A DNA stretch of 64,000 nt from Dysidea avara. Lineage: Eukaryota; Porifera; Demospongiae; Dictyoceratida; Dysideidae. The stretch's first letter is position 1; each line of letters opens with the position of its first letter. The notes under the pieces were generated by a model. The model saw nothing but the letters and a program-made list of their open reading frames with translations, was not told the DNA's origin and ran no database searches. The stretch lies in NCBI RefSeq assembly GCF_963678975.1, contig NC_089279.1, forward strand, positions 32,514,660-32,578,659, in the 5' to 3' direction. Below, piece after piece: positions 24,961 through 58,330 of this stretch. The position numbers were made by a program, and so were the translations under genes.

Positions 24961-24989
24961 ATGCGCCCATAGCAAAAGCTATTCTGCAG

Positions 24990-27712: not shown

Positions 27713-27778
27713 GTTTTGATACCCTAACATCTGCTGAGTCAGTGCTAGCAAAATATAACATGACCTCAAGAAATAAAT
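27713..27778 (+). CDS. Candidate small 5' exon of the NLR gene
   Basis: A 66-bp interval lies between ATTTATATGTAG and a strong donor GTAAGT. Only phase 1-1 is open (FDTLTSAESVLAKYNMTSRN); the other two phases hit stops at once. This is the same phase class as the Death exons downstream, and joining to the 28237 exon keeps the frame. Small and without a domain, so it stays a candidate. Confidence 0.4.
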
Positions 27779-28236
27779 GTAAGTTACATTCTTTGCATTA
27801 ATAGTACAGCTGATTTTCTCTGTAAGCAAGCTTTTTTTAAGTGATGCAAGCATTTTACATTTAGCAACAGCAAATTGTTCAGTTTACTTCTAATTAAAAT
27901 GTATATATCACACAGTACAGTAGTATTGTGCAGTAGGGATTATGGAGGTTTGGCTAACGTTCAAATGGAGTCCCGAAAACTTCCCTTCCTACACCCTTGG
28001 GTTAGCCATGTGAATAATGTTAGAGGGTGATTTATATATATAGGCTCCACCACTTATGGTGGCATAACCTTAATTTTGAAAATGTAATTTTCAGAATGTT
28101 AGGTTTGATTTTTGAGCATGCAATGCTCAAAAGCATAAAAGTAATTTTTCAAAGCATAGTGCTTAAGCCTACTTGTAAGTGCTGATGTATTGTACCTATA
28201 CAAACATGATTTATGCTATTATTGTATTTTATATAG

Positions 28237-28521
28237 CATCTGAGAGGCCAAGCATCAAAGAGATTATTTTGCAGATATCACCACTGTGCTTTAACAGATG
28301 GTTTGATCTTGGTATCATTCTTGATATCTCAGTTCAAAAGTTGAGAGATATTAGATTATCAGTAAACATCAAGCCAGATGCCTATTGTATAAGAATGTTC
28401 ACAGAATGGTTGGAGGGTGATGTAAATCCTACTTGGAATACTCTGTCAAAGGCTATAAATTCTGTTTTAGCTTACACAACAATACTTGAAGAATTACATA
28501 TAGTGAATTTTTGTGAAAAAG
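28237..28521 (+). CDS. NLR gene, Death-fold exon 1 (type A)
   Basis: A 285-bp exon between TTTTATATAG and AAAAG|GTTAGT, phase 1-1 (95 codons). It encodes a Death-fold: RPSIKEIILQISPL, RWFDLGIILDISVQKLRDI, CIRMFTEWLEGDVNPTWNTL. The LGxxLxI core, C-x3-M/F-xxWL helix and TW-xxL final helix are the marks of Death domains in invertebrate NLRs, which bind adaptors by homotypic contact. It is most like exon 3 (38959-39225). It belongs with the NACHT exon at 42321 by strand, phase and absence of any other gene between. Confidence 0.75.
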
Positions 28522-29848
28522 GTTAGTGCAGTGCTGTGAGATTATTCAACAGATTTTTATGCTGGTCGTTGATTGCAACATTTATCAGTGTCTAAATTTG
28601 CTGAGTCCTTCATATTTTATGGCTACATTTGTATACCCAGTATTAACTTGCTCAAGATGCAGTGACATAAATAATTAAACTCCATCATTCACTGCACTGA
28701 TGAAAAATTAGGACTATAGCTTCCATGTACAAAGTATTGAAATATCATGTAGCTGCAGTGAGACTTTTGAATGCCATTGACCAAGACTATTGAAATTCGG
28801 ATATCTTATACATTTAGATACCACTGTTTCTACCTTTCCCATGCAGGTATATAACTACAGTGTGGTAGTGATTTATAGTGCTAACCTTGAGTTACATATC
28901 CAAAGATATAAGCAGATAACATTTTTAGAACTGGGATTGTAGATATTACCATTGCTCCAGAAGTGGTAATGTGAGTAAACATTACTACATTGATTGCCAG
29001 TAAACAGCTGAACCATAATTGCCATTGTTGAGAATTGACGCTGTCTGCTGCAATAGTAGTAGAGTGGCTATAAGCAAACAATCATTCACTTTTTGATAAA
29101 AGCACCAAACTTGATATAACATTTGCTTAGTTCTTACCATTTCATATCAGATAGGATTCCATTAAATTACCAATCGTATTATGCACAAAGAACCCAATAA
29201 GCAGAGTTTTCTGGTGTAAGAAACCATAGATGTACAACACATTTCTGTAGACTTGTGTCTGTGCTTTTACACTGAAATATTGTATTGTATGGCTTCCAGA
29301 TTACCTACACAAACTACTTCACTTATTAAATTTACAGTGTTGATCTTAGTAATTTAATTTCAGATTCATGAGTTCAACAATAAAAAAATCTTAGCAGTGT
29401 GCAAAAACTCACCATTGCTTAGCTGTCTGAAGGTTCTATTAAAGAACATTATGTCATGTGTGAATTACCATAATTCAATCGCTTTATTTTCTCCCAAAAG
29501 TATTCATGATAATTTTTATGTTAAATATTTTTGTATGATTTACGTAAAGAATAACTGCTCTATTAGAATATTTAGAATTTTTGCACAAATTTTCGTGTGA
29601 GAAATTTTCATACAAATTTTGCATATGAAAATTAGTTTACAATGAAAACAAGTAAAGTACGGTAGTGTTTTATGGTTTTTTAATCAAGAGTTGGTTGATG
29701 GGTTGGATTTACATTCTAGTGAGAGTGCATGCCAAAAATGGATGAAAGCATGAATTTGCATTTAGCTTATTGCCTTAATAGTTAATGCTTAAAGATAAAA
29801 CATGGTAGACATTGAGGAGTTGTGCATACAAATTGTGGCTTCTATTTC
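28522..29848. other. Intron-like stretch, fragment of foldback family
   Basis: No gene seen. A piece near 29085-29125 (ATTCACTTTTTGATAAAAGC, then ACCAAACTTGATATAACAT) matches the arm of the foldback at 53258-54475. The frame 29397-29600 is low-complexity and not supported. Confidence 0.5.
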
Positions 29849-30629
29849 CAGGGGCGTAGGGAGGGGGGTTCCCAGGGGTTCAGGAACCCCCTGTAAAATT
29901 TAGACTTCTGAGTTCACAGCAAGACCCTAATACATCATTTAGTGTGGCAGGACAAAATGAGTGAGTAATAGTTTATGGCACAGCACAACAATTAATAAAG
30001 CTTGCATTCATCTCTCAGGGAAGGATTTACAGACATAACATGAACCCTCTTGAAAACTTGTTAAAAGATCGATATACTCTAATAGAGCAGTCAGGTATAT
30101 AATCTAATAGAGCAGTCACGTATACTCCAATAGAACATGCCTGTAAAATTAATATCCATATGTTAAGGAACTTCATTAGTCAATTTTTCAGACATTCTAA
30201 CATAACAGCAAAACTAAGCATGACCATATACTGCTATAGCTTTGATGTACAATGCATAAAGATACAAAACTCCAGTAATTTATCACTTGGGAATGCAACA
30301 TGCTGTGCATATTTGTAGTTATAATGTGTTGATTGCAAGTAATTCTATTTGTACAAGTATATTCATGGTTCCTATACCAGTGGGATAACTATCACTCACA
30401 GATACCTATAATTATGTATGTGTCTCCATGTGTTATGCTGTCTGTTTCCACCAAGTAGCTTTATCTAGTACTATAGCTTCATCCCATGCATTATGATTAA
30501 TGTATTTTTTGCATAAAAATATATAGCAATTTGTTGAGTTTTGATTCATTGAAATGTTGAAACTCCTGCTTCTGGTAACTCAATACTGATGTTGGAACCC
30601 CTCTTCAAAGAATCCTGGCTACACCCCTG
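29849..30629. mobile_element. CAGGGGCGTAGG-ended element
   Basis: CAGGGGCGTAGGGAGG at the left and CCTGGCTACACCCCTG at the right form weak inverted ends; subterminal GGAACCCCC/GGTTCC blocks also mirror. Three copies of the 28-bp motif lie at 30068-30130. No clear TSD, so boundaries are less certain than in the other elements. Confidence 0.6.
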
Positions 30630-31078
30630 ATTGCAATGCATTAGCGGTAAAACTAAGATAGAAGTGGAATTCTTAATGTTGTTTTAGTGATGTAAAATTT
30701 AAGAACATTTGCATACCTACATAACTTGCATGTCATTAATGGAATAATGGCAAAAGCTTTAACCCTTCTGCAACTTTAAATTGACAAAGAACCAGATCCA
30801 ACAAACCACTTGGAATAGCTCACTGTATTGGGTGTGCCTTTAATTGAAATTATTTTATGAACTTTAAGCATGCTCATTTACACTTACTACGTATATTGAC
30901 AATTCCATACCAGTGTTTCTGCAAGACAACCTGTAAAAAGATGCTAACTTTGCACCTTTGTATTATGTTCTAGTACATACACAAGTGAGTGCTGTAATCA
31001 TACACTAACAAAACAAACATGATGAAATTAAAAGTATAACACCAATAGCTAAAATACTTCGTGTCCATACACTGCAGA

Positions 31079-31133
31079 ACAAATTGTTACAAGTATAAGG
31101 AAAAAAATTCCCTTATACTTGTAACAATTTGTT
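31079..31133. repeat. Perfect 23-bp hairpin
   Basis: AACAAATTGTTACAAGTATA plus AGG pairs perfectly with CCTTATACTTGTAACAATTTGTT around a 9-nt A-rich loop. Adjacent sequence (31140-31195) resembles one half of the foldback at 36425-36660, so it may be a rearranged end of that family. Confidence 0.75.
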
Positions 31134-31219
31134 AATTAAGATTTTAAGTCCAATAAGAGATCACAGAAATAGATGTAGTGAAACAAGGGAGGTCACCTAC
31201 CACTTTGAGAAGTAGAACT

Positions 31220-31700
31220 TCATCAAAGATTTTTAATAATCATCCTGATATAATACTTGTTTCTATGTAAGAAGATCCCTCTTTCTATCTTATTGTTTTT
31301 GTTTGTCACACGCTTTTGTTTCCCCCTTTTCACCTCTCCACCAGAAGAAAATATTCTTTCGACCAGAGCAGTGGTTGCTAAAATAATATGTGACCGGGCC
31401 TGCGAAAACAGGGCATGTGGGCACAAACTACACCCCATCACTCTACAGGTCATATCTCAGTGCTGGAAAAGTATATTTCCATTCTGTAACTTGCATCATG
31501 ATGCTACTTAAATGCTTAAGAAGAACTGAAAATTGCAATGTCATAGTATAATGGTACAAAAAGTTATGGGTGATGAAAGTGTGAAAAGGTAGGCAAAAAT
31601 CAAGTGCCCACATGCCCTATTATCACAGGCCCGGTCACATATTACAAGCTACTCGAGATAGTAATGGAGTATACTAGAAAACACTACTACCACCATTGGG
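31220..31700 (-). pseudogene. hAT transposase C-terminal fragment, interrupted by a MITE
   Basis: Minus-strand translation gives LATTALVERIFSSGGEV, then KRVTNKNNKIERGIFLHRN, the classic end of the hAT dimerisation domain (ATxxxVERxFSxxG, then R-x-N/D-x-N then LxxN). Removing the MITE at 31389-31639 plus one TA joins this in frame to LLSRVACN upstream, as expected for the helix before it. No other part of the gene is nearby. It is unrelated in subgroup to the copies at 24000-26528. Confidence 0.75.
31389..31639. mobile_element. Tc1/mariner-like MITE (TGTGACCGGGCC ends)
   Basis: TA, TGTGACCGGGCCTGCGAAAA at the left; inverse ending GGCCCGGTCACA, TA at the right. It is 251 bp. The insertion site is a TA within a hAT fragment whose reading frame is restored on removal. 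A diverged sibling is at 37741-37981. Confidence 0.85.
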
Positions 31701-32239
31701 AAGCTACAACACTCTTAATACTTAAAACCAGCGTTTCTTGATACTTTTAAATGGGCAATATTACTGGTTTTCCCAGAGATAGTCACAAATAATAATATAT
31801 ACCATGCATAGCATGAAGCAGTGAATATTCTCAATGTTAGTGCAGCCAATGCCTATATACATAGCCCAAACACACCAAAATTATACTTAGTTTATTCACA
31901 GAATTCTTATGTCTTTAGTATAAATATGGGATGGAATTTTAAAAGTTATTATGTAGTGACTATGTTATTGATAAACAAACCAATTGAAATGGTTAGAGTA
32001 GAGCATTGATCAGAAATAAAAGCACACTTGAATAAAGACTTGGTTCAAAATGAAGGGACTTCAACAAATAGGAACAAATACAATCACCCAAGAGGCAAAA
32101 ACTATGGCTTTAATAGTGAGGTTGTCTAGTCAATAAGTTGAAGTACACCTTAGGTATTTTGTGACCTACTTGATTTAGCCACTATAGCAAAGTGATCTTA
32201 TTGATAAGGTCTGATGTACACGACCTCATAATAAGCTAA

Positions 32240-32752
32240 GTAGGGACCAGTCTATTTTGCTTTTTTTTTCACCTATTTTTCTTTCCAGCAATTCTTTCAT
32301 TTTTCACCTATTATGCTCCATATTTTGCTCAAGAATTATAAATTTTGCTCAGCATTTATCTTTACTAATTGAATATTTCCTATTGCAAAGCTACAGTTTT
32401 GCCTTAAAATGACTGTTCTATTAGAGTATCTCGATCAGTAATTACTTCTAACTTGTAAAGCAAGAAGCTAGTTAATATTGCTCAACATGTGTGACTGTTT
32501 TATTAGAGTATCTCGATTGTCACTTGTTGTTCTTGTAACAATTAACTATGCATTGTCGATATTTTAGCGCATCTGACTGTTCTATTAGAGTATCTTGATC
32601 TTTTGTGCAATTTTTATGTCCACTTCACAAAAATTGCACCTATTATGCCAACATTTTGCTCATTGCTTTTACCCACCCATTATGCCAAACATTTTGCCGG
32701 CAAAATTGATGGCTCCCTAAAGCTAAGCATAATTTTGGAGCCACAGCTATGA
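32240..32752 (+). repeat. CCTATTATGC-family repeat with three 28-bp motifs
   Basis: CACCTATTATGCTCC and TTTTGCTCAAGAATTA near the start, three separate GACTGTTCTATTAGAGTATC motifs (32412, 32492, 32573), then CACCTATTATGCC, CCATTATGCCAAACATTTTG and GCCGGCAAAATT at the end. This is the fullest copy of the family in the window. No coding potential. Confidence 0.65.
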
Positions 32753-32787
32753 TTGCTAGGCATGTAATAGAATGCTTGCTATGGTAA

Positions 32788-33615
32788 GGCCACTCCAAAT
32801 AAATTCTCTGTTTCCCGTCCACCGCCCACATCTAGTTGCTGTCAGCTCTAAATATTCCATTATTCCATATTCTTCCATTATTTTCCAGTTATTCTTGCAT
32901 ACTGAGAGGCTCAGTAAGGCCCCTATTCAGTGATTATTAGTTTCTCATCCAGCCTTTCTAATTATTATGATGCGGGCAGGAGGGTATTACCATTATACCA
33001 TTATTTTATAATATTAACACACTGATGTACAGACCTTGTCCAAATTGTCTTTTTTTTCTTACTACAAACATTTCCTTCACTACTTTTCGTGATCGCCAAC
33101 CGTTTTTCGACAGTCAACTGAAAGCCTGCTTTGATGAAGTCGATAGAGCACGATTGCAACTGGCACTGCAGCAATTTGCTAAGGAAAACAACAGTTCTCC
33201 TGGTGATATATAGCGCATTGTAGCGTTCATCAACAAAAATTATAACAGTTTGGTATCACGTGTTCTTCTGAGCATGCGCAGAGTAAATAATGGCTTACCA
33301 TGTGGTAGCTTAAGAAGGATGCGGGCGGTGGATGAGAAACTAATAATCACCAAATAGGGGCCTAAAAGCCATCTTGAAGCAATGTCAGCTCACGTGTCAG
33401 TAGTGCTATCGAGTTGGCACAAACTTTACGTTTGTACTATTTTTGCAACTTGAAAAGGAAGGACAAGCTTAAGCATGCCTTTTATGGTTGCACCAGGCAA
33501 ATAATGGCTTGAAAAGCTGCCAATCTTATAATGAAATAATGGAAATGGACCGTCCGCCCACATGCAAATATACTTTAGTCCAGGACGGGAAACAGAGAAT
33601 TTATTTGGAGTGGCC
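32788..33615. mobile_element. PIF/Harbinger-like MITE with TAA TSD
   Basis: Ends GGCCACTCCAAATAAATTC and inverse, TAA on both sides (32785-32787, 33616-33618). Harbinger-type transposases duplicate TWA. A second element of the same class (32918-33362) is inserted in it. Other copies: 3930-4265 and 7430-7775. Confidence 0.9.
32918..33362. mobile_element. Nested PIF/Harbinger-like MITE with TAA TSD
   Basis: GGCCCCTATTCAGTGATTAT then TAGTTTCTCATCC is mirrored by GGATGAGAAACTA then ATAATCACCAAATAGGGGCC. TAA flanks it (32915-32917, 33363-33365). The related copy near 7640 has the uninterrupted site (CAGTAAAAGCC in inverse). The frame 33025-33213 inside (FFDSQLKACFDEVDRARLQL) matches no family known to me. 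Confidence 0.85.
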
Positions 33616-34001
33616 TAATAGTGCAACCATTTTGAGTAGGAAGGAGTAAAATAGTACAAGACAAAGCCAAACACCATTTCCTTCTGATGTAAGATATGAT
33701 ACTACAGCCAGCCATCAAATTAACCCAACAACCATAATGGCCACTACTTTGCAAAAGGTCAATCACACTTAGTAACTGTTACAAATGTGATATTCAAAAT
33801 TAATGCAAAAAGAGTTTTAGGTATTCACTTCACTATCAGTACTTGATGAAATTACTGTATATGCTTTTCAGTGCTTAGATGAATTCACATGCTAAATAAA
33901 GTAAGGCTGGGTATCTAAATGGATTCTGAATAGTGTGTTAGGTATACAACATTATTAAGAGCAACTTATATAACAACAATATCTGTTTTGTATTTGTGTA
34001 G

Positions 34002-34256
34002 TAAAGAAACAAGATCTCACAGAGTTGATTGATTTTGTTACCACATATTATTCTCCACAATGGAGGAAGATTGGGGTTCTATTACACATCACAGAGAGTA
34101 CACTGGATGCTATACAGCAGGAATACCTAATCAACCCTAATTTGTGTTGTGACAAAATGCTAAAAAGATGGATAGAGACAGATATATCTGCCTCATGGAA
34201 CACACTTGTGACCACTGTCAAATTACTAGAGAAAGCAACAATGCCAGAAATGAAAG
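34002..34256 (+). CDS. NLR gene, Death-fold exon 2 (type B)
   Basis: A 255-bp exon between TTTGTGTAG and GAAAG|GTACTA, phase 1-1 (85 codons). It encodes LTELIDFVTTYYSP, QWRKIGVLLHITESTLDAI, CCDKMLKRWIETDISASWNT. The W-xx-(I/L)G core, C-xxML-xxW helix and SW-xxL helix fit a Death domain. It is closest to exon 4 (41863-42096), which has HWREIGIMLGL, MLVKWL and SASWKNL. The alternative, a lone relic of another NLR gene, is less likely because no NACHT exon lies between here and 42321. Confidence 0.8.
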
Positions 34257-35498
34257 GTACTATGTATAATCATTATGAGGGACAAGGTATTTAGTATCAT
34301 GCATTTTTCCACCAAATCTATAATATGCTGACATAGCAGGTACATATATTTAATCCTAAATGTTGTTTTAAGTGACCTAAAATGCTTTCAATAAGATTTC
34401 ACAAAAATAGAAATTTTGACAATAATAACTGGTTCTTTACTCCAGCTTGACTAATATTCTTATTTTCTGGGCTGGAACTTGTTGGCTAAACACCTTTATT
34501 TATCATGTATTTAAAATTTGTTACAATACAATTACCACCTGGGGGATGAGGACTATAGGACCACAGAATGGTTGCTGTGCTCCTCTTCATAGCATAATGC
34601 CAACAATGGACTGCTTTGAAACTGACTTAAGTATGGTCCCTGTAGTGCATGTCCCATGTAACTGAGCACAATTAATTCTGCTATCGAATATTATTTTTTA
34701 GCAGGTACACCCACATAACTCATACAAAATTTATCCCACCAGACCTGACATTTGTACAGATTCCTGCAAGGTCAACATTTTAAATTTCAAAGTGACAGTT
34801 AATAAAATAACAAAATTCTAACATATCAAGTTTAATTTGACAAAATTTAATAAATGAACTCAACAAATTATCTAGTTCTCTGGTGACATTTTTACACCTC
34901 TATTCATTAGAGGTGAGACAGTTAATCATGAATAATTGAAAGTTTTTACAAAGGGAATAGAAAAACACCTATTATATTGCAATAATTCAGGAATGATATA
35001 TAGTGAACATTTATTCTGGATTATTTGGGTATAACTGGTGTAAAGTACCTATAACTAGTGCAAAGTATGATTTGACTTCTACTAAAAAACTTCAAACCTA
35101 AAAATACCTGAAAATGTAGATACTCTAATAAAGCAGTCACTTATAAGTAATAAACTTTTGAGCCTTTTTTTGCTAATGCGCTTATGTATATGTTTAGCAT
35201 AATTAGCACTAGATGAATTTTGAAACAATTTTCGGCTTAACTGTGGCTGTGTAAGCTTATTACCAGTGTTTCCATAGCAATATGATTGATAGTTGAGACG
35301 CTTTTCATGCTGTCCTTTGTTTGCAATGCTGTGTAATGGAAAAGGCATAGCTGAACATGAAGTGTAATGGTTACCTCCATTTTTGCTTCATAATTGATAG
35401 TTGGGGCATGCGACTGGACATATATTTTGTCAGGTGCCGTTCCTTTTGATGCAGTATACGCGTCGGTTCACCAGTCATAATTATGTTACAAAAACAGT
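34257..35498. other. Intron-like stretch
   Basis: No gene recognised. One reversed 28-bp motif (ATACTCTAATAAAGCAGTCAC, 35119-35139). The minus frame 35082-35348 overlaps it and is not supported. Confidence 0.5.
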
Positions 35499-35632
35499 CC
35501 TACATTTAATCTCTATACTTCAGTCTAATACAGTAGTGAAAAAATAGAGGTTGCATATATGCTGCAGTGGACATTGAATCCCTAATTCAGTCGTGGTTAT
35601 AGACTGAATGAAGTATAGAGATTAAATGTCCA
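35499..35632. repeat. Foldback repeat, ATTTAATCTCTATACTTCA arms
   Basis: CATTTAATCTCTATACTTCAG and CTGAATGAAGTATAGAGATTAAATG mirror each other; the centre contains TGCAGTGGACATTGAATCCC, shared with 36580-36600. It joins the foldback family at 36425, 39962 and 61279. Confidence 0.7.
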
Positions 35633-36174
35633 GTAGTATATTATGCAGATGTATAGGTAACCTCTCTTCTTTCACAACTTCTTTTATTGCAATTCCCTAC
35701 TTTTTGATCCCTAATTCAACTACAAAATTTTCATTTTTTCCTTCTACTTGTATGTCTAAATCTTCATCTGTACCACACAACTATGCAAGGTAAATTTTTG
35801 TAATAGCACTAGCATTTTAGCATGGAGCAGTTACTTGTAAGCCTGTCATTAAAAAGATGTTGGCTAAATAATTTATTATTGTGCCAAATGTCCTTGTTTA
35901 TTTTTGTCATTTTCTGGATAAGAATCACTCCATCGACAATGGCAATATTTGGATTATTTAAAGATGTCTGATATGCAATCACTCTGTCACTGGAAAGCAA
36001 ATTTTCAGTCGATTAACAGTTAGGTAACAGTGGATCCTATAATTTTCAAAGATTGTGTATCAATTTTAACTTGTCGGTACATGTCTATGTGGTGCATAAA
36101 ATTGCTCTTGGTGATCAGAGTAAATTCACTATTGCCAATTGTTTCTGTGAAAAATTTTCCCATCAGCTATGCTC

Positions 36175-36262
36175 TTAATTAGCTATGCTCCATTATGCCA
36201 GCATTATGCTTTATGTTTTTCATCCCCTATTATGCCAAATATTATGCCGGCATAATCGATGC
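36175..36262 (+). repeat. CCTATTATGC-family fragment
   Basis: CCATTATGCCAGCATTATGC, then CCCCTATTATGCCAAATAT, then TATGCCGGCATAAT: the right end of the family described at 32240-32752. Upstream sequence is unrelated. Confidence 0.6.
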
Positions 36263-36424
36263 AAGCCTATAGCTGAAAATAAAGTGTAATGGCCACTTCA
36301 TGTAATTGATACCATAGTTGAGGCACATATTCAAATTACAACATTAATTCTTTTGCCGTTCTTTCATTTGATGCTGTTAGCTAGCAGTCATATATGTAAC
36401 ATAACAGCAAACAAACAAGTACAA

Positions 36425-36660
36425 GAATTTTAAGTATGACTAGGGATCACAGAAATAAAAGGTAATGGATAAATCAGTAATATCGTATATAGATAACAAA
36501 CAAGTACAAGAAATTTTAAGAATCATAGAAACAATGTAGGGAAACAAGGAAGGTTGCCTACACCTGCAGATATGCTAGTGGACACTGAATCCCTACTTCA
36601 GCCATACCTTCCTTGTTTCACTACTTTTATGCCTGTGATCCTTAAAATTCTAATCGGTAC
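36425..36660. repeat. Foldback repeat, ACAAGTAC / GTAGTGAAACAAGG arms
   Basis: ACAAGTACAAGAAATTTTAAG then GGGAAACAAGGAAGGTTG pairs with ACCTTCCTTGTTTCACTAC then CCTTAAAATTCTAATCGG, TACTTGT. The GATCACAG-AAATA arm motif also occurs at 31160, and the ACAAGTAC and GTAGTGAAACA pieces recur at 39962 and 61279. Confidence 0.7.
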
Positions 36661-37312
36661 TTGTCATATTTAAATACCCTGAAGCTAGCCAAGTCCAGAT
36701 TTTGGGCCTGTTTTTACTTGTACCCTTCATTATTTAAAGGCACAACAAATATTATTTTCAGACATATACAGTAATTACTATTGTACTGCATATTTTGTTT
36801 GACTATTTAATTTTGTAAAGCTTCAACAGTTTCTGAACAGGGCTAACATTTTTTAAACTTTATATAACACAGTGTTCTAGAACAATAGAAAATATTTAAT
36901 AATGTATGTTTTGCACTTTCACACAAAAATGTTGATCAGAAACTAATTAGCCTCATAGTTCAATGCCAGAAGACTTCCAATATATTGCTATGAAATTATA
37001 TTCTTTTAATCGACTGACAGGCCTTCAGAGAATCAAAATACCTTAATAGTGACTTAAGCTACAGGAATTTTTTTGTTGTGATATGATACTTGAATCAGCC
37101 TGGCATCATGGATACACATGTAGTACCTTAAACTGAGCAATACAATTGCATAGCTTATTGGCTAGTGTATTAGAAGTGTATGTTTCCTACCAATGTTTCC
37201 ATACACTCCTATATTTATAGCACAGCTCATTTAGAGGTTTACTAAATCACTTAGTCACCTGACATGTTCACTTAGTCACCTACTCATGTATAAATATATA
37301 TATAATTATACA

Positions 37313-37549
37313 CACTGCTTGAAGGTTCTTAGTTTACTAATTTGTTAAGATGCCTTACTGTAGTTATACTGATAGTAAAGTGTCAGTAAACTTAAGTATA
37401 TGGAACATAATTATTTTACTAAGTTTTAAACTCTCAGTAAAACATCAGTGAATGCGGGTTTACTGAAAAACTACTAAAATAACAAACAATTAACTGTTCC
37501 ATATACTGGGGATATACCACCGTAGTAAACTAAGATACTTCAAGCAGTG
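37313..37549. mobile_element. MITE with CACTGCTTGAAG ends
   Basis: CACTGCTTGAAGGTTCTTAG then TTTACTA is mirrored by TAGTAAACTAAGATACTTCAAGCAGTG. The inside is filled with AGTAAA/TTTACT blocks and a pair CATATACTGGGG / AGTATATGGAAC. 237 bp, no clear TSD. Confidence 0.75.
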
Positions 37550-37740
37550 ACATATATTCACCTGTGGGCCATTAAGAAATTTTGTACATGATAAACAATT
37601 GAGTACTTGGTGTCTTTCTATACCAGAATTGTGTGCATCACTAATAATTGTTGAACAACTCAGTCTTTAACTTAATGGAGCCAGGTAACGTTCACCATCA
37701 TGACTCTGAATCGTCGGGTAGCGATTCCTTTTTCTAAAAA

Positions 37741-37981
37741 TGTGACCAGGCCTGAGAAAATAGGGAATGAGGGCATAAACTACGCCCAGTCACACTACAG
37801 GTGATATTGCAGTATTGAAACAGAATATTTTCATTCTGTAACTTGCATCATAAAGCTAAGTAAAGAGCTGAAAATTGCATTGTCATAGCATGGTGGCATA
37901 AAAAGTTATGCATGTTGGAATTTTGCAAACGTAGGCAGAAATCATGTGCCCACATGCCCTGTTTTCGCAGGCTCAGTCACA
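37741..37981. mobile_element. Tc1/mariner-like MITE, sibling of 31389
   Basis: TGTGACCAGGCCTGAGAAAA and the inverse ending GCTCAGTCACA. The body matches 31389-31639 (ATTCTGTAACTTGCATCAT, TGAAAATTGCA, AAAAAGTTATG). Ends are more diverged and the TA flank is lost. Confidence 0.8.
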
Positions 37982-38439
37982 AATATTCTTGGGAGGAGAG
38001 TTTAAAAAATACTTATTGCTTAATGCTAATACTGTAGTATTCTTTGATTCACTGTGTTCTTTGATTCACTGTGTTCTGGACAAAGAGTAGACTAAGTACA
38101 TCTAGGTGTAGCCATTACTCTGGTTACAGGTACTCACCCCTCAAATAATTTTTTGTGGGTATTTCAAGGCAAGCATTCAGTCATTTGTGGTCCTCTTTTA
38201 CCCCATACTTACATTGTCATGGCTATGGAGGTATGTACATAAACCATTGCAATGCTTAGTCTAAACACTGTAACCTAAGGGAAATAAGCAATTTAGTAAC
38301 CCCTCAGGCCCCTAGTAGTCCCCTTGCTGCCCTTGGGATGCTACAGTCTAAGGCCTTTGTGGTTACTAAACTGTTTAGTTCTTTTGGTCTTGGTGTTTAA
38401 CTATTATTTAGAGGAGACAAAGGAATGGCAGCTATATGC

Positions 38440-38900
38440 ATTAGTAGATTGCTTAATAGTTTGAATTTTTACGTGCTATATCTCTTAGGCAGTTGTTCTG
38501 ATTTTTTTCAAGCCACCATAAGAAACGTTTACAATGCCTAATGACTGATTATCATGATAAGTAGTTTACCCTGTAGCTGTGATAGTAAATATACACATCT
38601 ACAATTCTACAAACTTTTACCAAAGTTAGGAAGTGAATCCATTGTGCATCCAGCATTAAAGTGATTTTTGATTGGCAAAAGAAAAAGAAAAACTATGGAA
38701 GAGTGAAACTTTCATGGTATATATCTGAGAAATGGCTAAAGAGATTTACATATAGTGTTTGGTTTTCCATACTTAGTACCACTACAAAATAGTCCTATTT
38801 GGAGGAGAGGTTACAAAGCTAAATAAATAATATACTCACAAGTGTAGCACACCAGTTTTCTTGGACAACACACAAATGTGTGTTTTAATGTTTTATTGTA
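38440..38900. repeat. Old copy of the minisatellite-tail module
   Basis: Aligns with 21930-22205: TATCTGAGAAATGGCTAAAG against TATCTCGGAAATGGCTGGAG, TTTCCATACTTAG against CTTCCCTACCTAG, and ATATACTCACAAGTGTAGC then CACACAAATGTGTG at the end. No minisatellite is attached. It lies immediately before Death exon 3. Confidence 0.65.
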
Positions 38901-38958
38901 TAAGAGAATATTTCTAATAGCTGCATAATACAAACTGTGTTTTATTTACTTGTTTTAG

Positions 38959-39225
38959 AAACTGAGAAGCCATCTACAAAGCAATTTGTATTGTACATCA
39001 AGCCACAATTACAGTGCTTGAATGCATGCATTGATCTTGGGATACTCCTGGATGTACCTGTGCAAAAGATGGAAGATATCAAACTCTCAGAACACAATGA
39101 TCTAGACCTATGTTGCATAAAAATCTTTACAGAATGGTTAGAAAGCAGTAAAGAGACAACATGGCATAGTCTTTTGGGAGCAGTCGATACTCTAAACACC
39201 AGAAACCTTGGTCTAAGCAGCAAAG
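38959..39225 (+). CDS. NLR gene, Death-fold exon 3 (type A)
   Basis: A 267-bp exon between TACTTGTTTTAG and CAAAG|GTACGT, phase 1-1 (89 codons). It encodes KPSTKQFVLYIKPQL, CIDLGILLDVPVQKMEDIKL, CIKIFTEWLESSKETTWHSL. LGI-LLD-VPVQK matches LGI-ILD-ISVQK of exon 1 very closely, and FTEWLE is identical. It is therefore a duplicate of exon 1 rather than of its neighbours exons 2 and 4. Splice sites are strong. Function inferred as for exon 1. Confidence 0.78.
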
Positions 39226-39367
39226 GTACGTATACAGATATTTCTAAAGCTTGTTCTTAGTATTATACTGTATCTTGAAATATATTATTGCTCTATGATG
39301 TTAATTGAATACTTCATTGAGCATAAAAAATATACATACCTATCATCAACTATACAATATTGTTAAG

Positions 39368-39448
39368 GATTCCATGAAACAGAATTAGCAAGCCTGGTTG
39401 AAAAACGAAGGGAAGTCCAACAAATGCACAAGCAACTGTATAGAGCCT
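39368..39448 (+). CDS. Candidate helical linker exon
   Basis: After ATATTGTTAAG an open phase-1 frame reads FHETELASLVEKRREVQQMH, then KQLYRA, a charged, heptad-like helix. A donor GCCT|GTAATC keeps phase 1 (81 bp); a second possible donor lies at CAAAG|GTATAC but would change phase. It follows Death exon 3 by 140 bp. No domain family; could be chance. Confidence 0.3.
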
Positions 39449-39961
39449 GTAATCAAAGGTATACAAAATCTAGCCAACAAGATTAATAATAGACATGTAT
39501 TACTGTGATTTTACTGTTGTAGTAGGTATGCCTTTCATTATCTAAATACGAAATCATACATCCACTTTATAAATAATGGTAGCCAAAATGCATAGTATAC
39601 AAGATGGCTATATGCTCCACAAATACAAACCAAACCTTAGCCATAGGCACCGTCCGTATGGCACCATGAAGTATAACATGCACTAATTACATTTTCAACT
39701 TACTATCAACTCTATGGTGCATTTTATATAGGCCTATAGTGTGCCTATTCTTTACTGGTTGATTTTCACTTCATAAATTTGTGCCTTGTGTGGTTATGTG
39801 TATGCGTGGTTAGTTGCTAAATTGCTTGAAAATGAAGCGCAATGAACACTTCACTTTTCAGACAATAATTGATATAGCTGGGACATGCGGTGCCATTTCA
39901 GATGCGGTGTGCATGGGTCCACCAGTCATAATAATTATTTACAAAAAACAAGTACACAAAA

Positions 39962-40567
39962 AATACAATTTTCAATTAGAGTAGGGACCATAGCACATCA
40001 ATAAAAAGTACTGAAACAAGTTGCAGTAGTCAATGATATTAAATCACAGTAAAGCAATAAGAAGTGTTATATCCCATTATGGTATCTTGAGCACAGTTGG
40101 GATATAACACTTCTTATTGTATTACTGTGATTTAATATCATGGACTACTCCAACTTGTTTTAGTACTTTTTATCGATGTGCTATGGTCCCCAGGGGCGGA
40201 TCCAGAGTTTGGAAAGAGGGGGGGGCACCTTTCTAAAAAACAGTTGAAGACCAAAAAAAACTTACTGAAAACCAGTTGTAGACCAAAAAAAAAAAAAAGG
40301 TCACAACAATAATAGCTAGTTATCCTTACCAACTATATCACATCTGTTATGTAAAATAAAATCCTATTTATAGCTTCATAGGTAAGCTACACTGCCTCAT
40401 GAACATTGTGACTGCTTTATTAGAGTAATTGACTGCTCTATTAGAGTATCTCGATCTTGTATGCAATTTCTTGAAGGGGGGGGGGCATTTGCCCCAAATG
40501 CCCCATCCTGGATCCGCCACTGGTCCCTAGTCTAGATGAAAATTCTAATTTTTTGTGTACTTGTTTT
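39962..40567. mobile_element. Foldback element interrupted by a CAGGGGCGGATCC MITE
   Basis: Arms: CAAGTACACAAAAAATACAA then GGGACCATAGCAC (left), GTGCTATGGTCCC [MITE] TAGATGAAAATTC then GTGTACTTG (right). Inner arms TAATATCAC... are nearly perfect, e.g. GGGATATAACACTTCTTATT against its inverse at 40054. The left arm shows what the right arm looked like before insertion. Confidence 0.8.
40191..40522. mobile_element. CAGGGGCGGATCC MITE, 5-bp direct repeat
   Basis: CAGGGGCGGATCCAG and CTGGATCCGCCACTG ends, GTCCC on both sides (40186-40190, 40523-40527). Inside: GGCATTTGCCCCAAATGCCCC and two 28-bp motifs (40411-40456). Sibling of 48735-49219. hAT-like ends; no transposase. Confidence 0.85.
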
Positions 40568-40582
40568 AGTGCTATAAATACA

Positions 40583-40770
40583 CTGTTTAGGCTTGAGCTA
40601 ATATGCATTGAAAATAGCCTATCATGTCTTTGAGGAAAAATCCAGCCTATTATGCTCAAAATTATGGTTTCAAATTTATTCACTAGAGTTCACTGTTTTA
40701 TTAATTAGAGTATATTATTGTTTCCAGACTGCTGTATTTAGAGTAAGTGAGTGCTCTATTAAAGTATCTC
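40583..40770 (+). repeat. CCTATTATGC-family repeat fragment
   Basis: GCTTGAGCTAATATGC, CAGCCTATTATGCTC then AAAATTATG, followed by three decayed 28-bp motifs (40695-40770, the last TGCTCTATTAAAGTATCTCG). Same order as 32240-32500. Confidence 0.6.
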
Positions 40771-40813
40771 GATTTCATTTCTGCAAAGGTTGAATAATCA
40801 ACCAAGACAAAAT

Positions 40814-40895
40814 AAAACTAGGTTAGGTAATCCTAAGGCTGCAGCACATGTTGTTGTAGACCTTCAGTGCTGGTCACTGTAAAGTGTTAATAATG
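40814..40895 (+). repeat. SINE 3' tail, solitary copy
   Basis: About 80 bp starting AAACTAGGTTAGGTAATCC and ending GTCACTGTAAAGTGTTAATAA. It is nearly identical to 41082-41160, the tail of the complete SINE next door. The pair flanks the SINE head, so it may be a second truncated copy. Confidence 0.75.
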
Positions 40896-40924
40896 AATAC
40901 CTTAGGATTAAGGAAGAAAATCCA

Positions 40925-41178
40925 TCCCTCCTGGAGGAAGACTGAGTGTGGCCCCGACTAGACATTGGGTGACCTGCAGTTCGATTCCTGGGGTTGGAGG
41001 GATTTTTTTCCTTACTTTGGTCCCTTTTCTGTTACACCTTTCCAGCTACTGAATAAGTCATTAAGTCTAAGTCCTTGAAACTAGGTTAGGTAATCCTAAG
41101 GCTGCAGCACATGTTGTTGTAGACCTTCAGTGCTGGTCACTGTAAAGTGTTAATAATAAAAAAAAATAAAAAAATAAT
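40925..41178 (+). mobile_element. tRNA-derived SINE
   Basis: A tRNA-like head contains an A-box-like GACTGAGTGTGG (about 40948) and a perfect B box GTTCGATTC (about 40979), spaced as in RNA polymerase III promoters. A unique body follows, then the tail AAACTAGGTTAGGTAATCC to GTGTTAATAATAAAAAAA. The A-rich end suits LINE-driven retroposition. A short inverted repeat (GATGGATTTT-type, AATCCATCCCTCC / GGAGGGATTTTTTT) surrounds the head. Confidence 0.75.
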
Positions 41179-41862
41179 AGCATTGCACATTTTCTTGATA
41201 TGAAATGCAGTACTAAGGTACCCCTGTATAGTGGGTTAAAATTTTGCTGTATTTTTGGCACATATGTTAAATAAAAATCTTGAAAATCACCCTGTTATGC
41301 TTGGTGCTTTTTCTAGCCTATTATGTAATTATGTTGCCTCTTCATGTTCGTATTGCAAATGGCATGTGTGTTATGTGTGCTTATTTATTATGCATTAGAA
41401 ATAAAGTTTATTGTTACGTTTCCTTGTTGAAATGGCCTAGTTCCTTGTCCACGTGGAAGGGTACAAGGAAACACTATACCTTGATGAGTTTGTCAGTTCA
41501 TGGTGAATAGATTGAGCCAAGTTCAATCTCCATAGCTTGGTTCAGTCATGAGTTATGATCAATTAATTAGGTGCTTGTAATTTATTTTCCTCGTTGTTGT
41601 TGAACAAATCAAACTCAACTGTCTGGCACTATAACTCCAAGACCATTTATCATAAAAAACTTTGGCTGTCCAGGCTCCTTTAGAAAAGAGAAACATACTA
41701 AAACGGAATCCGAGGAATGTGCAAAAATGACTGGTTTTGCTAAGCCGGTCACAGTGATCCTTGCTATTAAGTAATGTTTTATTATATCGATAAATCTCAG
41801 AGTAGGGTTATGTTTAAGTGATTTCTGCACTGTGCAAATAACAATAATGCACTATCTTTTAG

Positions 41863-42096
41863 GAGACAAAAGACCATCACTAAAACAATTATACAAGGAA
41901 GTCATTCCACAGTATGCTGCACACTGGAGGGAAATTGGAATAATGTTGGGGCTGGAGAATGACCTTCTAAACATTATACATGCAGACAACCCACATAGCG
42001 TGGAAAAACGTTGTGGTATAATGTTGGTAAAGTGGCTACAAAGGGAACCTAGTGCTTCTTGGAAAAACCTTTCTGATGCCATTGATGAATTTGAAG
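41863..42096 (+). CDS. NLR gene, Death-fold exon 4 (type B)
   Basis: A 234-bp exon between CTATCTTTTAG and GAAG|GTAATG, phase 1-1 (78 codons). It encodes KRPSLKQLYKEVIPQY, HWREIGIMLGLENDLLNII, CGIMLVKWLQREPSASWKNL. The W-xx-(I/L)G core and the final SW-xxL helix mark a Death-fold. It lies 52 bp before the linker exon and 225 bp before the NACHT exon, so this Death module is the one most certainly joined to NACHT. Paired in type with exon 2. Confidence 0.88.
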
Positions 42097-42147
42097 GTAA
42101 TGAGGTTAATTTATAAAGAACTATAATTTACTTTACAAATTATGTAG

Positions 42148-42204
42148 CAATGCATGTTAACAATCCTCTACCTACAATCACTACTACCACTAGCAGCAAT
42201 GAAG
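42148..42204 (+). CDS. NLR gene, Thr/Ser linker exon
   Basis: A 57-bp interval between AAATTATGTAG and GAAG|GTTTGA, open in phase 1-1. It reads MHVNNPLPTITTTTSSNE. Short low-complexity Thr/Ser linkers between Death and NACHT are plausible as flexible hinges. If skipped, exon 4 still joins the NACHT exon in frame, so it may be optional. Confidence 0.55.
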
Positions 42205-42320
42205 GTTTGAGATATTTGTATACACACTATATTTGTGTCATGTGTCAATGCAATATGAACTTCATATTCAAATTATGGGATTATACTGTGTTTATCATCA
42301 CCCTCTAATGATACCTTTAG

Positions 42321-45300
42321 ATGAAATAACACCAGTGATCAGAAATCTGCAGGCTGAATACAAGGCTACCAGGTATATTAGCCTAGCTGATGAATGGCCT
42401 CCGGACCAGCCCAAACACTTCACGGCAATTGCTCTTATTCATCACCAAGAAAAACCGAGTCAACAAGAAGCCATTGGTGTTGCTAACCTAGTTAAGCAAG
42501 GAATTAGATCATGTTTAAAACTTCCTTCTAATGTCAATAACATTGATACTATGAAGCCTGACAAGATTACTAAGGACATTTCTGAAGTGTTTACACCAAA
42601 AGGTGGGAATGTCACAGAGAGTATCTTGATAGAGGGAGCACCTGGAATAGGGAAAACAGTTTTATGCAAGGAAATAGCATACCAATGGGCTACTAAGCAG
42701 TTTCTACAAGACAAATTGCTATTATTTTTGATTCTCTTACGTGACCCACACGTGCAGGAACTAAAATCGGTTGTTGAATTCGTTAACTACTGTTGTAAAA
42801 ATGAAAGTTTTTCAAAGACGGTAGTTGATCATTTGTATAAAACACAGGGTTATGATCTGGTCATACTCTTTGATGGGTATGATGAAATTGGCGAAAGCAT
42901 CAGACAATGCTCCTTCATAGCAGATATAATCTTTCGCAGAGTACTGTCAGAATGTACTCTTGTCATCACTTCTCGACCTTCAGCAGCATCACAACTCCAT
43001 AGCAACATATCCTGTAGAGTTGAGATTTTGGGCTTCACTAATACTGAACGGCAACAGTTTATTCAGGAGTCGTTGAAAGATTCTCCTGAAAAAGCAGCAA
43101 CATTGCAAAGCTACTTGGATGACAACACAGATATCAACACCCTCTGTTACATTCCCCTGGTAATGACGATATTGCTGTGCTTATTTAAAGCTTCTATTGA
43201 ACTGCCAAAAACTCAAACAGAATTATACCAAAAATTTACTTGTCACACCATAGTTCACTTTCTTACAAAAACAAAAGGTGGTCCCATCAAAGCACTTAGA
43301 TATTTATCAGATTTAGAGCAGCCGTATCTTGGTATCATCACCAAATTAGCAAAGATTTCTTTTAAGTTTTTAGAAAAAGATAAAATTGTATTCAGTGCTA
43401 AAGATGTTGAGGAGATTTGTCCAAAACTAAACATTAAATCTATAAATTGTACACAGCTGGGCTTGCTAAAGGAAACAAAATATATTGATTTAGAGGAGAC
43501 CAATCCAGTATTGTCATACAACTTCCTTCATTTGTCACTGCAAGAATTTCTTGCAGCAAAGTATGTTTCATCACTTTCTTTCTTTCAACAAGTAGATATT
43601 TTACAGAAAACATTTTGGAATGCCAGATATTTTAACATGTGGATCATGTACATGGGCTTAACTGCAGGAAAGAAAAATGCTTTTAAATATTTTTTAAGTA
43701 GCAATTTGACTAGCTTTGTTAAAAATCAATTAAATAAGAGAAATGTTATACCTAAGGATATCTTAACTGATAAAGTGAAAAGCCTTCATCTTTTCCATTG
43801 TTTTCAAGAAGCCAAAGATGATAGCATGTGTGCAACAATTGGAAACTGTTTTGAAGATCGTACTGTTGACCTTAACAACCAGACTTTACTGCCAAAGGAT
43901 GTAAATATACTTTGTTTCTATTTGCTAAGAACAACCAATACTAAGTGGAACATGTTAAATTTGTCAGGATGCAACATAGGTGATATTGGCTGTAATGAAC
44001 TGCATAAATCTTTGATTGTTAGTGACAAAAATGAAATATTCTTTCAACAGTTAGATTTCAGTAACAATCAGTTAACTTCTCAGTCAGTTGCTGTAATAGT
44101 AGATTTGGTGCGAATTTTTGAAGTTGTTGAACTAAATATTTCTAATAATCCTTTACATAATATGCTTCTCGGATTTTTAACTGAGTTCAAATTCTTGAAA
44201 TCATTGGTTACAGGAAGCAGTACTAACTCAGATGACAGAAACATCAGTCAAACAATAAATATTATTCACAAATCATCGCTAGAGTATGTGCACATTAATG
44301 ACAAGCAGAATACCAGCCTGATACTTAAAATCAGTGGGTTTACGAAAATGATTTCTGCATCATATTTGAAAACATATCGAAATTTCATCATGGAAGATTG
44401 TAATGCATCACAAACACTGTTTGAACATTTACTTGACTTTTTAGATGGACAAGAAACTTTAACATACTTCCGTGCATGTAATAATAGATTCAATGTATCA
44501 ATGATTCAATCAGTCTGTACTACTTTGGCAAATATGTCATTTATCCAAGAAATAGTCATTTATGAATTTGATTTGATGGCTTCTGAACTTAATGACATAA
44601 TAAGTCGACTACTGTTCAAAAATTCAAGCTGCAGCATTACCATTTTTTCTAAACTTGAGCTGAAGTGTATTAATGCTTACACAGTGCACATCTTTGATAT
44701 ATTAGCAGAACAACCAGCAATTAATAAACTAGATGTAATCAACTGCAAAACTGAAATTCAAGAATCTTCAAAACAGCAGAACTATATGAATATTGTAGAA
44801 GATCTTAAGTTTTGTTCACATGAAACTAACAGCCTGCTGGCCTTTATCAAAGCATTGAACTTTACAGCAATTAAAGTCCTCCATATAACTGGGGCCAATA
44901 TTGCAGATGAGACTGCAGATAGGTTGTTACCTGTGCTGTCTAGTAACAAATCACTCACTGAGTTTATAATATCTGACAGTGAGATTACTTGTGAATTAGC
45001 AGTTAAATTTATTCAAGCATTAAAACGTATAATGACATTAGAGATTTTTAAAATATCTTGCTTTGGTAATATTAATTTTGCATCAGAGGACATAAAAACT
45101 ATTCTTGTGAACAACTGCACCGTCCTAACTGAAGTTGACATTTCTGACAACAAACTGTGGAATGTTGCACCAATCAAAGCACTCAAAAGTTGTTACAATT
45201 TAAAAAGCTTTAAAATAAGTGGTAACAACTTTACTGATGAAGTGTCACAAGATGTTGTAGACATACTGAAGAATAATTCCTGTTTACTTGAGGTTGATGT

Positions 45301-47464
45301 TACACGTAATAACTTTTCACCAGTTTCTGGACAATCTTTCATCAATGCCTTAAAGGATAAAAAGGTTTTGCAGATTTTTAGAATCGGAAATTGTATCATC
45401 ACAGAAGACAACCTTGCTGATGTTGCATCGATTATTTTTAAAAACCCTGGTTTAACTGAATTAGACTTGTCTGAAAATCACTTGACTGTGAGTGGAGCTT
45501 GTGCTGTTGTTCAAGCACTGGGAAATGCAACCAACGTTAAACTTTTCAAGGCAAGCAAATATATGGTAAACAAGGACACAGTTAATGACATGATAAGTTT
45601 CTTTTCAAATAACTCAAAACTGACAGTAGTGGATATATCAGCAAACCTGTTGACATCTGGAGCCATTAAAGTGATCAGAAGTTTTAAGAATAAATCTCTA
45701 CAGATTCTTAGATTGTGTAACTGCAAGATTACACAATCAGAAGCTGATGAACTAGCAGATGTTATTAAAAATACATCTCTAATTGAACTAGATTTGTCTG
45801 ATAATCAGTTGCTGGCAATTGGTGTGATTATCATTTCACGAGCCCTGAAAGGAGTAGTTTCATTGCGGGTGTTAAACTTAAGAAATTGTGGCATTTGTGA
45901 CAAAGCCGTGGACACATTTACAGGGATGTTGTGCACTCTTGTTAATTTGATGGAGCTGGATATATCCAGTAATGAATTTACAAATAATGTTATTCTCAAA
46001 ATCATTAATTCTTTGAGAATCACTCAAATTAAAGTATTAAAAATGAACTATTGCAAAATAATGCATATGGGTTGGCTTGATATTATGGATGTTTTTCGTG
46101 GAAAGAACTTCCTCTGTCTGGAGTTGTCCAACAGTAGCTTTAAAGTTGTCAATATATTGCAAAATATCAATACTCTTGAAATTCTTAACATTTCTAACTG
46201 CCCTAATGTGAATGATGAAAATTCAGTAGAATTATCAGCTACAATATCTAACAATTTGAAATTGTCATGTCTAGATTTCTCTCATAATAACGTGACAGCT
46301 TATGGGGCTATTCAAATAGCTGGAGCAATAAAATGCATTACAACTTTACAGACTATTAACCTAAATAATTGCAAAATTACAGATGAAGCAACCAATGAGA
46401 TTTCTGCTGCACTGATTTGCAACCCACTTGTGAGAGAGCTAAACATTTCTTGGAATAATTTAACAGGAAGTGGGACTGCTAAGATTTTGCAATCACTAAA
46501 AAAAAGTCACTTTTTACAAATCCTTAATATTGCAAGTTGTGGCATAACTGCAAGTGAAACTGAAGCTATAGCTACTGTTCTGTGCAACAAATATAATCTG
46601 ATACAAATAGATATTTCATCAAATCAACTGAATGCACATGGAGCTATGCATGTATTGAATGCTCTTAGCAACATCACCTCTTTGCAAATATTTAAAGCTG
46701 ATAATTGTGCTATTACTGATGCAGCAACTGATGTGACAGCAACGGCTTTAACTAAGCTGTACACATTAACAGAGCTAACCATTCATGAAAATGATTTCTC
46801 AGCATCCTGTATGAAAACAATAGTAAAAACTTTAAAGGTAATATCAACCCTCAAAGTTATAAAGTTGAACAACTGCTTGTTTGATTACATGTCTGGTGAG
46901 ATTGCAGATGCCATTGGAAGCAACTGTGGATTAAATCATCTCGAAATATACAGTAGTAGTTTTACAACACGTGGAGCTAGTTTGTTCTCTAAATGTTTTA
47001 TAAACATACATATTCTGCAACATTTGAAACTGATAAATTGTGGCATTACTGAGATGGTAGCTGGTGAGATAGCAGCAATACTGGAACATAATAAATTTAT
47101 AGAACATTTGGACTTGTCTCATAATCCTGTAAGAACTGGTGTCACAGAAATACTTGGCGTTTTAAATTATAATCAAGTGCTTAAAGTTTTCAAACTGCAT
47201 TCCTGTGGTATCAAAGATGAATCAGCACATGATCTGGCTATCTTTGCTCAAGTCACATCTTTGATAGAATTTGATATACTGCAGAATCAGTTAACAGCTA
47301 ACGGTGCATTGACCATAGCGCAAGGGTTTACGTATTCATCCACATTAAAACTACTGAAAATTAAAAACTGGGACAGCATATACCGTGTAAGAGAAAATGC
47401 AGATGATGCGAACTATGTACTAAACACTTTAAGATATAAAAATGTTTTATTTGTTTTTGACTAA
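42321..47464 (+). CDS. NLR gene, NACHT plus LRR exon (Death-NACHT-LRR receptor)
   Basis: One 5.1-kb exon of 1714 codons after the acceptor GATACCTTTAG, phase 1, to TAA at 47462-47464. NACHT: Walker A GAPGIGKT (42635), Walker B region LVILFDGYDEI (about 42855), sensor-like TSRPSA (about 42967), then a winged-helix-like region with FLHLSLQEFLAA (43522). From about 43940 to the end there are some 25-30 ribonuclease-inhibitor-type LRRs (LDISxNxLTxxG, LxNCxITDExA). Such proteins sense ligand with LRRs and oligomerise through NACHT in the cytosol. The start codon lies in an upstream exon; the open frame before 42321 is intron. Confidence 0.93.
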
Positions 47465-48300
47465 TGTTTATCTAAGTGGACATATAGGTACATAAAATAA
47501 GTGTACATTTTTAGAGCCTTGTAGACTTTCATGTAATTCCTAATGTACCACAACTAGGTATCACCACTGCATACACTATGTACACTACATTGCATATTAA
47601 TTACATGAATATGTACAACACAAAAACATTTAGCTTTTGTAAAACTTCATACATACGATGCTCCTACTTGTGTTTATTTGGTGATAATTAATACAATGGT
47701 AAGCAGTATCAAACATCTGAGGAACACGTGTTTGTATATACAAAACAGATTCACAGGGTTGCAAACAGAAAACTAAAGATGGTATTGCATAGTATATCCT
47801 GGTATACCACCAGAAAAAGCTGGAGCCATTAGGATGATTTTGAACAATAAATCAGGCTTGCTCTATGGATATATACAATAAATAAATAAAATTAATATGC
47901 TTCATTTGGAGGTCTGGGGGCATATCCTTCTAGTTCTTGAAACTGAATTTCATAGCAACTTCAAAAGAGAATTGTTATGTAAACTTTAAAACTTATACCG
48001 TCTGTTTACTACTGTAATTTAGTTTTTTTTTCATTGTAAAATAAATTTTGTATGTAAAATTTTTACGAAAATTTCTTGCATGAAAATTTTATACAAGATC
48101 GAACTACTCTAATAAAGCAGTCATTTACATAAATCATACAAAAATATTTTTACACGAAAATTTAAAAAAAATTGCACAAAAATAAAGCGAATTACAGTAA
48201 TTCTACTGAAGCTTCAATAAGCATGAAAACTTCAGATTAACCTTTTAACACTCCCTACAGAGCTATTAGTTTATATCATCTCATTTTTATCTTCACTACG
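47465..48300. other. 3' flank of the NLR gene
   Basis: No gene. AATAAATAAATAAAA at about 47876-47890 could serve as a poly(A) signal for the NLR transcript. A 28-bp motif (ACTACTCTAATAAAGCAGTC) is at 48101-48120, with A/T-rich inverted stretches around it (about 48040-48175). Confidence 0.5.
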
Positions 48301-48306
48301 TGACAG

Positions 48307-58244: not shown

Positions 58245-58330
58245 TGTGATCTTCAGATCTTGGTGGATAATTGTCATCACTTAACAGTGAAGTGATCAAG
58301 ACTAGCAAATATCAACATCACTAGATCACA
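58245..58330 (+). repeat. Intron repeat shared with 57496-57580
   Basis: ATAATTGTCATCACTTAACA then GTGATCAAGACTAGCAAATA then TCAACATCA occur here, at 57512-57570 and again at 63735-63792. Duplication within the SF3B3 intron region. Confidence 0.75.

Follow-up and report, generated by a model that had tools for sequence, protein, structure and literature searches.

NOD-like receptors (NLRs) sense through their leucine-rich repeats (LRRs), oligomerize through a NACHT domain and assemble via modules of the Death superfamily, and their signaling is usually described with one N-terminal module per receptor. Here we report on a gene in a 64,000-nucleotide stretch of the genome of the sponge Dysidea avara (contig C8, 32514660-32578659, hereafter the window), in which four Death-fold exons, termed A1, B1, A2 and B2, precede a single NACHT-LRR exon. 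We favor, with moderate confidence, the reading that this gene codes for a sponge Death-NACHT-LRR NLR whose N-terminus has been enlarged to four tandem Death folds in the order A1-B1-A2-B2, each on a symmetric phase-1 exon.

Human NOD2 has a tandem CARD, which is termed unique within the NLR family, and also a CARD-only isoform, NOD2-C2 (available text of PMC2931527). Like the window gene it carries multiple Death-superfamily modules ahead of NACHT-LRR, and its alternative transcripts can yield the modules alone, but its modules are two CARDs, whereas those of the window gene are four Death folds. Among sponges, a metazoan survey gives NLRs with Death domains (NLRDs) as Death-NACHT or Death-NACHT-LRR proteins (PMC11508797), and a survey of Dysidea avara itself counted 126 bona fide NLRs, 25 of them with a Death domain (PMC12909245), in a main text from which the words "tandem" and "exon" and the stem "splic-" are absent. 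NLRs with multiple Death domains find no mention in the available passages of PMC6208332, PMC6321704 and PMC8260672, and none is described in the titles and abstract openings of the open-access papers listed. Sponge NLRDs such as P0062 of Dysidea avara share with the window gene the NACHT-LRR region and a Death domain just before a similar WPP-containing linker; however, one Death domain was found in P0062, as against four exons in the window gene, two of which are of a type invisible to Pfam. P0062 is annotated as an NLR of 2,910 amino acids that also carries PF00388 and PF00387, presumably the X and Y regions of phospholipase C, and represents either a fusion or an annotation error. Three Death domains, two of them close together, occur in one protein of Halichondria panicea (LOC135335600, P0132), which differs in that neither NACHT nor LRR is among the Pfam matches found for it at an E of up to 0.1.

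The predicted features of the window gene, all on the plus strand, are as follows:

27713-27778 (+), candidate first exon, 5' part non-coding, with an ATG at 27760; reads MTSRNK and ends in phase 1
28237-28521 (+), Death-fold exon A1 (exon 1), 285 nucleotides, phase 1-1; assigned by profile comparison, relatives and a structural model
28522-34001 (+), intron A1-B1, 5,480 bases, with matches to other parts of the window
34002-34256 (+), Death exon B1 (exon 2), 255 nucleotides, phase 1-1; Pfam Death match, relative P0006
34257-38958 (+), intron B1-A2, 4,702 bases; the best NACHT-LRR match inside has E=0.13
38959-39225 (+), Death-homologous exon A2 (exon 3), 267 nucleotides, phase 1-1; close paralogue of A1
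39226-41862 (+), intron A2-B2, 2,637 bases, with matches to other parts of the window
41863-42096 (+), Death exon B2 (exon 4), 234 nucleotides, phase 1-1; adjoins the NACHT exon
42097-42320 (+), intron B2-NACHT, 224 bases
42321-47464 (+), NACHT-LRR exon, 1,714 amino acids, open up to its stop

The first-pass annotation of this DNA had proposed four such exons upstream of one NACHT-LRR exon, and both the exons and their arrangement were recovered: all four have AG acceptors, GT donors and the phase and length given above, and they are predicted to join in frame to the NACHT-LRR exon with only a terminal stop. With the short first exon starting at 27760 included, the predicted splice product spans 6,204 nucleotides and 2,067 amino acids, its sole stop being terminal. 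The first exon itself is a plausible candidate, ending in phase 1 before a GTAAGT, but it is not unique, as 28096-28174 and 28123-28174 equally run from an ATG to a GTAAGT in phase 1. The statement that any subset of the four exons would splice in frame is true; however, it follows automatically because all four are symmetric phase-1 exons.

The last exon places the gene within the NLRs. Its NACHT domain is detected by PF05729 (E=1.1e-20, 74.6 bits against a cut-off of 26.7), and the C-terminal LRRs are matched by LRR_6, LRR_1, LRR_4 and LRR_8 of Pfam over their respective cut-offs, so that both features of bona fide NLRs, a NACHT domain and C-terminal LRRs, are present. A Death domain N-terminal to NACHT, the feature that defines NLRDs, is supplied by B2 and B1 in the predicted in-frame join. 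The single Death module that is usual in NLRDs, though not defining of them, is not what is seen here, there being four Death exons. In a tree of 120 sequences, that of the window included, the NACHT exon of this gene belongs to an exclusive clade of 18 members (support 1.0). The similarity of the relatives P0015 and P0016 to the NACHT exon starts at the predicted splice acceptor or two residues past it.

A Pfam scan detects the Death domain in B1 (E=7.4e-06) and B2 (E=8.1e-06), both over the gathering cut-off, and finds no Death match in A1 or A2, nor in any of the 7 A-type sequences available. For the A type, profile comparisons were made. Three Death profiles, namely an A-only, a B/NLRD and a mixed one, when run against the six-frame translation of the window, picked out only the four exons, the next best match having E=0.17. 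In this search the A-only profile detected B1 at E=1.9e-11 and B2 at 4.8e-11, and the B/NLRD profile reciprocally detected A1 at E=1.3e-12 and A2 at 9.8e-10. When 7 A-type sequences were aligned with hhalign to 9 of the B/NLRD type (one of the 9 with two mistyped letters), the probability was 98.0 across 79 columns and 97.8 on repetition; in the controls it stayed at or below 6.3 in 100 column shuffles and was 0.4 with a reversed profile. Pfam alone would exclude exons 1 and 3 from the Death family, a placement that is ruled out by the hhalign result together with the cross-detecting profiles. All four exons are, on this profile evidence, homologous to Death domains, which bears out their earlier designation as Death modules. 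Beyond sponge NLRs, the mixed four-exon profile reached ankyrin-2 (E=0.0013) and the B/NLRD profile RIPK1 (6.9e-05), while the A-only profile reached no Death domain in the same kind of protein search. Of the structure predictions that had been proposed for each exon, that of A1 yielded an AlphaFold model of moderate quality with six helices (predicted local distance difference test score, pLDDT, 79.8; predicted TM-score 0.67). When this model was searched against the PDB, ranks 1-12 of the 33 matches were Death domains, with a best E of 0.33 and query-normalized TM-scores of 0.47-0.62; these 12 include TNFR1, ankyrins, Fas/FADD and the oligomeric Death Domain complex, several of them repeating the same molecules. 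Net charge, compared between the A and B domains, gave no separation. With two of the four modules here invisible to Pfam, it is apparent that domain counts made with Pfam only can overlook Death modules.

To place this arrangement in its genomic context, Death exons were collected from the 550.8-Mb assembly with A1, B2 and B1 as queries. The best 150 of 688, 937 and 847 candidates gave 450 rows and 306 distinct places, and neighbors on the same strand at most 10 kb apart were grouped. Because only the best 150 per query enter, the resulting counts are lower bounds; for example, a pair at C8:21461175 (see below) has only one member among the listed places. Of the 306, 296 stand singly, there are 3 pairs, and the window gene is the sole group of four. 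With a linking distance of 16 kb, 6 pairs in all and a second group of four, on C1 with steps of 11-16 kb, appear among the listed places; two 10-kb stretches of this C1 group were inspected and held one Death exon each. Viewed from the NACHT side, 105 listed matches, which do not include the window's own NACHT, have one listed Death place within 12 kb upstream in 51 cases, two in 1 and none in 53, and of 8 NACHT loci inspected 3 have one Death exon nearby and 5 have none. Separately, three Death frames were observed within 10 kb at C8:7062000-7071999, two on one strand and the third on the opposite one. The four-Death architecture is real and unusual, being the only group of four within 10 kb among the 306 listed places.

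The nearest parallels in the same genome are two NLR genes with two Death exons each, at C3:37862441 and C8:21461175, in both of which an A-like exon is followed by a B-like exon and then by the NACHT frame. The A-like exons measure 303 and 276 nucleotides and the B-like exon 267 in both genes, all multiples of three, and by their frame coordinates the four exons start in phase 1. They are separated by 781 bases at C3:37862441 and by 92 bases at C8:21461175, and the NACHT frame of both genes has a WPP linker like that of the window gene. The distal exons of both pairs fall inside the A clade with supports of 97 (53 sequences) and 99 (70 sequences), and they are the two nearest relatives of the A type at other NLR genes in this genome. 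Thus, both genes share with the window gene an A-like then B-like phase-1 exon before NACHT, but have two Death exons where it has four. Because the A-then-B order recurs at these two NLRs, the window gene has the appearance of a two-Death NLR that was enlarged, as far as sequence comparison can tell.

Each of the four exons also has counterparts outside the window. When the four exons served as queries in a protein search, 11 proteins were returned, of which 4 are encoded in the window itself (P0001-P0003 and the fragment P0011) and 7 come from other contigs; a search of viral contigs for relatives confirmed none. Across trimmed columns, P0007, P0008 and P0009 are nearest to A1 (63-73%), P0005 to A2 (79%), P0006 to B1 (62%) and P0004 to B2 (81%), and P0010 is of the A type with 47% to A1 and 51% to A2. 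We infer that the exons of these seven relatives are orthologs. In six aligned exon-relative pairs the decay of similarity coincides with the predicted borders or misses them by a few residues (for P0009, which begins within its exon, only the 3' border is assessable). On the donor side it ends directly past the exon, and on the acceptor side of A2 and B2 it runs on for a few residues of intron sequence, the acceptor tract itself being alike.

Several observations weigh against the proposed four-Death receptor. The joining of the exons, including the Death-NACHT join, is a gene model predicted from DNA, and its weakest part is the first exon, given the two overlapping alternatives noted above. 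At 2.6-5.5 kb, the introns between the Death exons are long in comparison with the 92 and 781 bases inside the two A-B pairs. The other four of the five A1 models have pLDDT values of only 48-58, and the fold search had no match at E<=0.001, the matches to Death domains having root-mean-square deviations of 4.1-11.2. The contigs that carry the relatives measure at most 1.2-11.3 kb, and the four-exon order is, on present sequences, known from this genome alone. When residues 8-345 of the spliced product, its N-terminus, were searched against candidates of 0.55-1.75 times 2,067 amino acids, in a database that includes an annotated Dysidea avara protein, the only protein returned was P0132 of Halichondria panicea, and annotated Dysidea models were absent; the window's own record may have been left out, or the annotation may leave the exons unjoined. 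Finally, the NACHT tree does not unite the two A-B genes with the window gene as sisters, so that descent of the whole gene from A-B genes, which we considered, is not established.

If the four-Death NLR is real as a protein, the LRRs would sense and the NACHT domain oligomerize, whereupon every subunit would display several Death folds. B2, beside the NACHT domain, would be the ordinary signaling module, and A1, B1 and A2 would be added modules or binding faces, which might bring in partners of a second class or make assembly stronger. In the likeliest case the mature transcript normally contains all four exons, and smaller isoforms could arise by skipping, because every exon combination keeps the frame. 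The gene would thereby offer a natural test of why several signaling modules would be needed on one sensor, and the NLRs of this genome with one, two and four Death exons form a graded natural series for the role of the extra modules.

It is possible, though we think it rather improbable, that the exons instead serve as alternative N-termini, with one or a few picked per transcript such that one sensor is coupled to different adaptors. This would suit the free combination of symmetric exons and the presence of several ATG/phase-1 starts 5' of A1. It would also suit the apparent origin of A and B from different Death lineages, a tree that unites every window exon and the relatives in one clade being rejected by the approximately unbiased (AU) test (p 0.015) but not by the Shimodaira-Hasegawa (SH) test (p 0.054). 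However, exons of this family would share a symmetric phase through common descent in any case, phase 1 being found likewise in all four exons of the two A-B pairs, and the counterpart of each exon in relatives fits constitutive use just as well. A more doubtful elaboration of the enlarged receptor concerns the alternation itself, in that the A and B faces of neighboring subunits might combine into a mixed Death assembly that dispenses with any external adaptor, with skipping tuning its size or partner; the A type would then be a Death lineage specialized for such a role, and its two closest relatives at NLRs elsewhere in the genome each occupy the distal position in an A-B pair.

The history of the exons bears on the origin suggested by the first-pass annotation, in which an ancestral A-B pair beside NACHT was duplicated in tandem as a two-exon cassette to give A-B-A-B. 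This account would explain the order by one event, could start from A-then-B pairs of the kind known at two other NLRs, and is consistent with the relationship of the A exons. A1 and A2 are indeed alike (45% identity, 74 bits); with A1 as the query, A2 is the best other match (66 bits, 47%), the next scores 47 bits and a long tail follows within the best 150. Their similarity is still visible in the DNA, with 70% over 134 columns and a z of 19.5, as against 6.6 for B1-B2 and 6.1 for A1-B1. The duplication of A1/A2 is thus well supported by sequence.

The B exons do not behave in this way. Exons 2 and 4 had been taken as a specific pair, but their similarity (29%, 43.9 bits) is no greater than that of exons 1 and 2 (28%, 43.5 bits) and close to that of exons 1 and 4 (27%, 40.8 bits), and the W-R-IG and ASW pattern offered as their signature is common in Death exons from this genome. 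Neither B1 nor B2 appears among the best 150 genome matches of the other, the 149 further listed places having 29-44% identity for the B1 query and 35-50% for the B2 query, so that at least 149 other places outscore their pairing from either side. The maximum likelihood (ML) distance between them is 2.64 (1.81 between P0006 and P0004), compared with 1.2 between A1 and A2. A 27-sequence tree pairs B1 with B2 as sisters at a support of 44, alternatives fitting equally. In larger trees B1 groups with L003 and with an exon of the C3 gene, which are proximal Death exons at two further NLRs, with supports of 87 and 95 (53 sequences) and 85 and 80 (70 sequences). Forcing B1 and B2 together gave an AU p of 0.576 in the 27-sequence tree, cost 13.2 log units (AU p 0.249) once exons of the same genome were added, and cost 22.6 log units (AU p 0.113) with 70 sequences. 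B1 appears to change faster, its ML distance to its own relative being 0.61 in the 53-sequence tree, which softens this result, as such change could mislead its placement. Thus, a sister relation of B1 and B2 is disfavored by the similarity ranks and the larger trees, although the AU test rejects it in no tree. A DNA comparison within the window, aimed at remains of a duplicated A-B block, recovered the match between exons A1 and A2, and the remaining matches look like dispersed repeats.

Given that only the A exons act as a duplicate pair, the cassette account needs correction, and we regard it as unlikely. An origin of all four exons by duplicating one exon in place is likewise unlikely, because the AU test rejects their single clade, even though the SH test does not. 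For the enlarged four-Death receptor we instead envisage that an A-then-B two-Death arrangement came first, that the second A was gained by local exon duplication, and that B1 came from a Death-exon lineage other than that of B2.

It is very unlikely that A1, B1 and A2 form part of a different gene, are remnants of neighboring NLR genes whose NACHT exons were lost, or yield short Death-only read-through proteins: the long introns with repeats, the stop within a few codons past each donor and the lack of an annotated joined model in our search would fit, but NACHT/LRR matches between the exons are no better than E=0.13, every exon is open and has a similarly bordered counterpart, and the plus-strand frames of at least 110 amino acids between A1 and NACHT are those of A1, A2 and B2 only, that of B1 measuring 106.

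The remainder of the window holds a few other features. Downstream of the gene, the frames at 48270-50555 (+), which we take to resemble an F-box/LRR protein, gave a weak Pfam LRR_4 match in 49378-49854 only. Frames at 57650-60200 (-), which presumably resemble the splicing factor SF3B3, have a weak CPSF_A match in 57650-57979 and none in 59835-60200. Frames at 31223-31456 (-) and 24135-25741 (+) are in our estimation similar to pieces of hAT-type transposases; the Pfam scan of 31223-31453 (-) and 24135-24656 (+) gave no match. At 171-743 (-) there is a weak match to the endonuclease/exonuclease/phosphatase family, under the cut-off, presumably as in elements of the long interspersed nuclear element (LINE) type. 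A small nucleolar RNA match, SNORD31, lies at 60752-60826 (-) with 43.2 bits against a gathering cut-off of 40, and a PHD-finger match slightly under the cut-off is seen at 1838-2197 (-).

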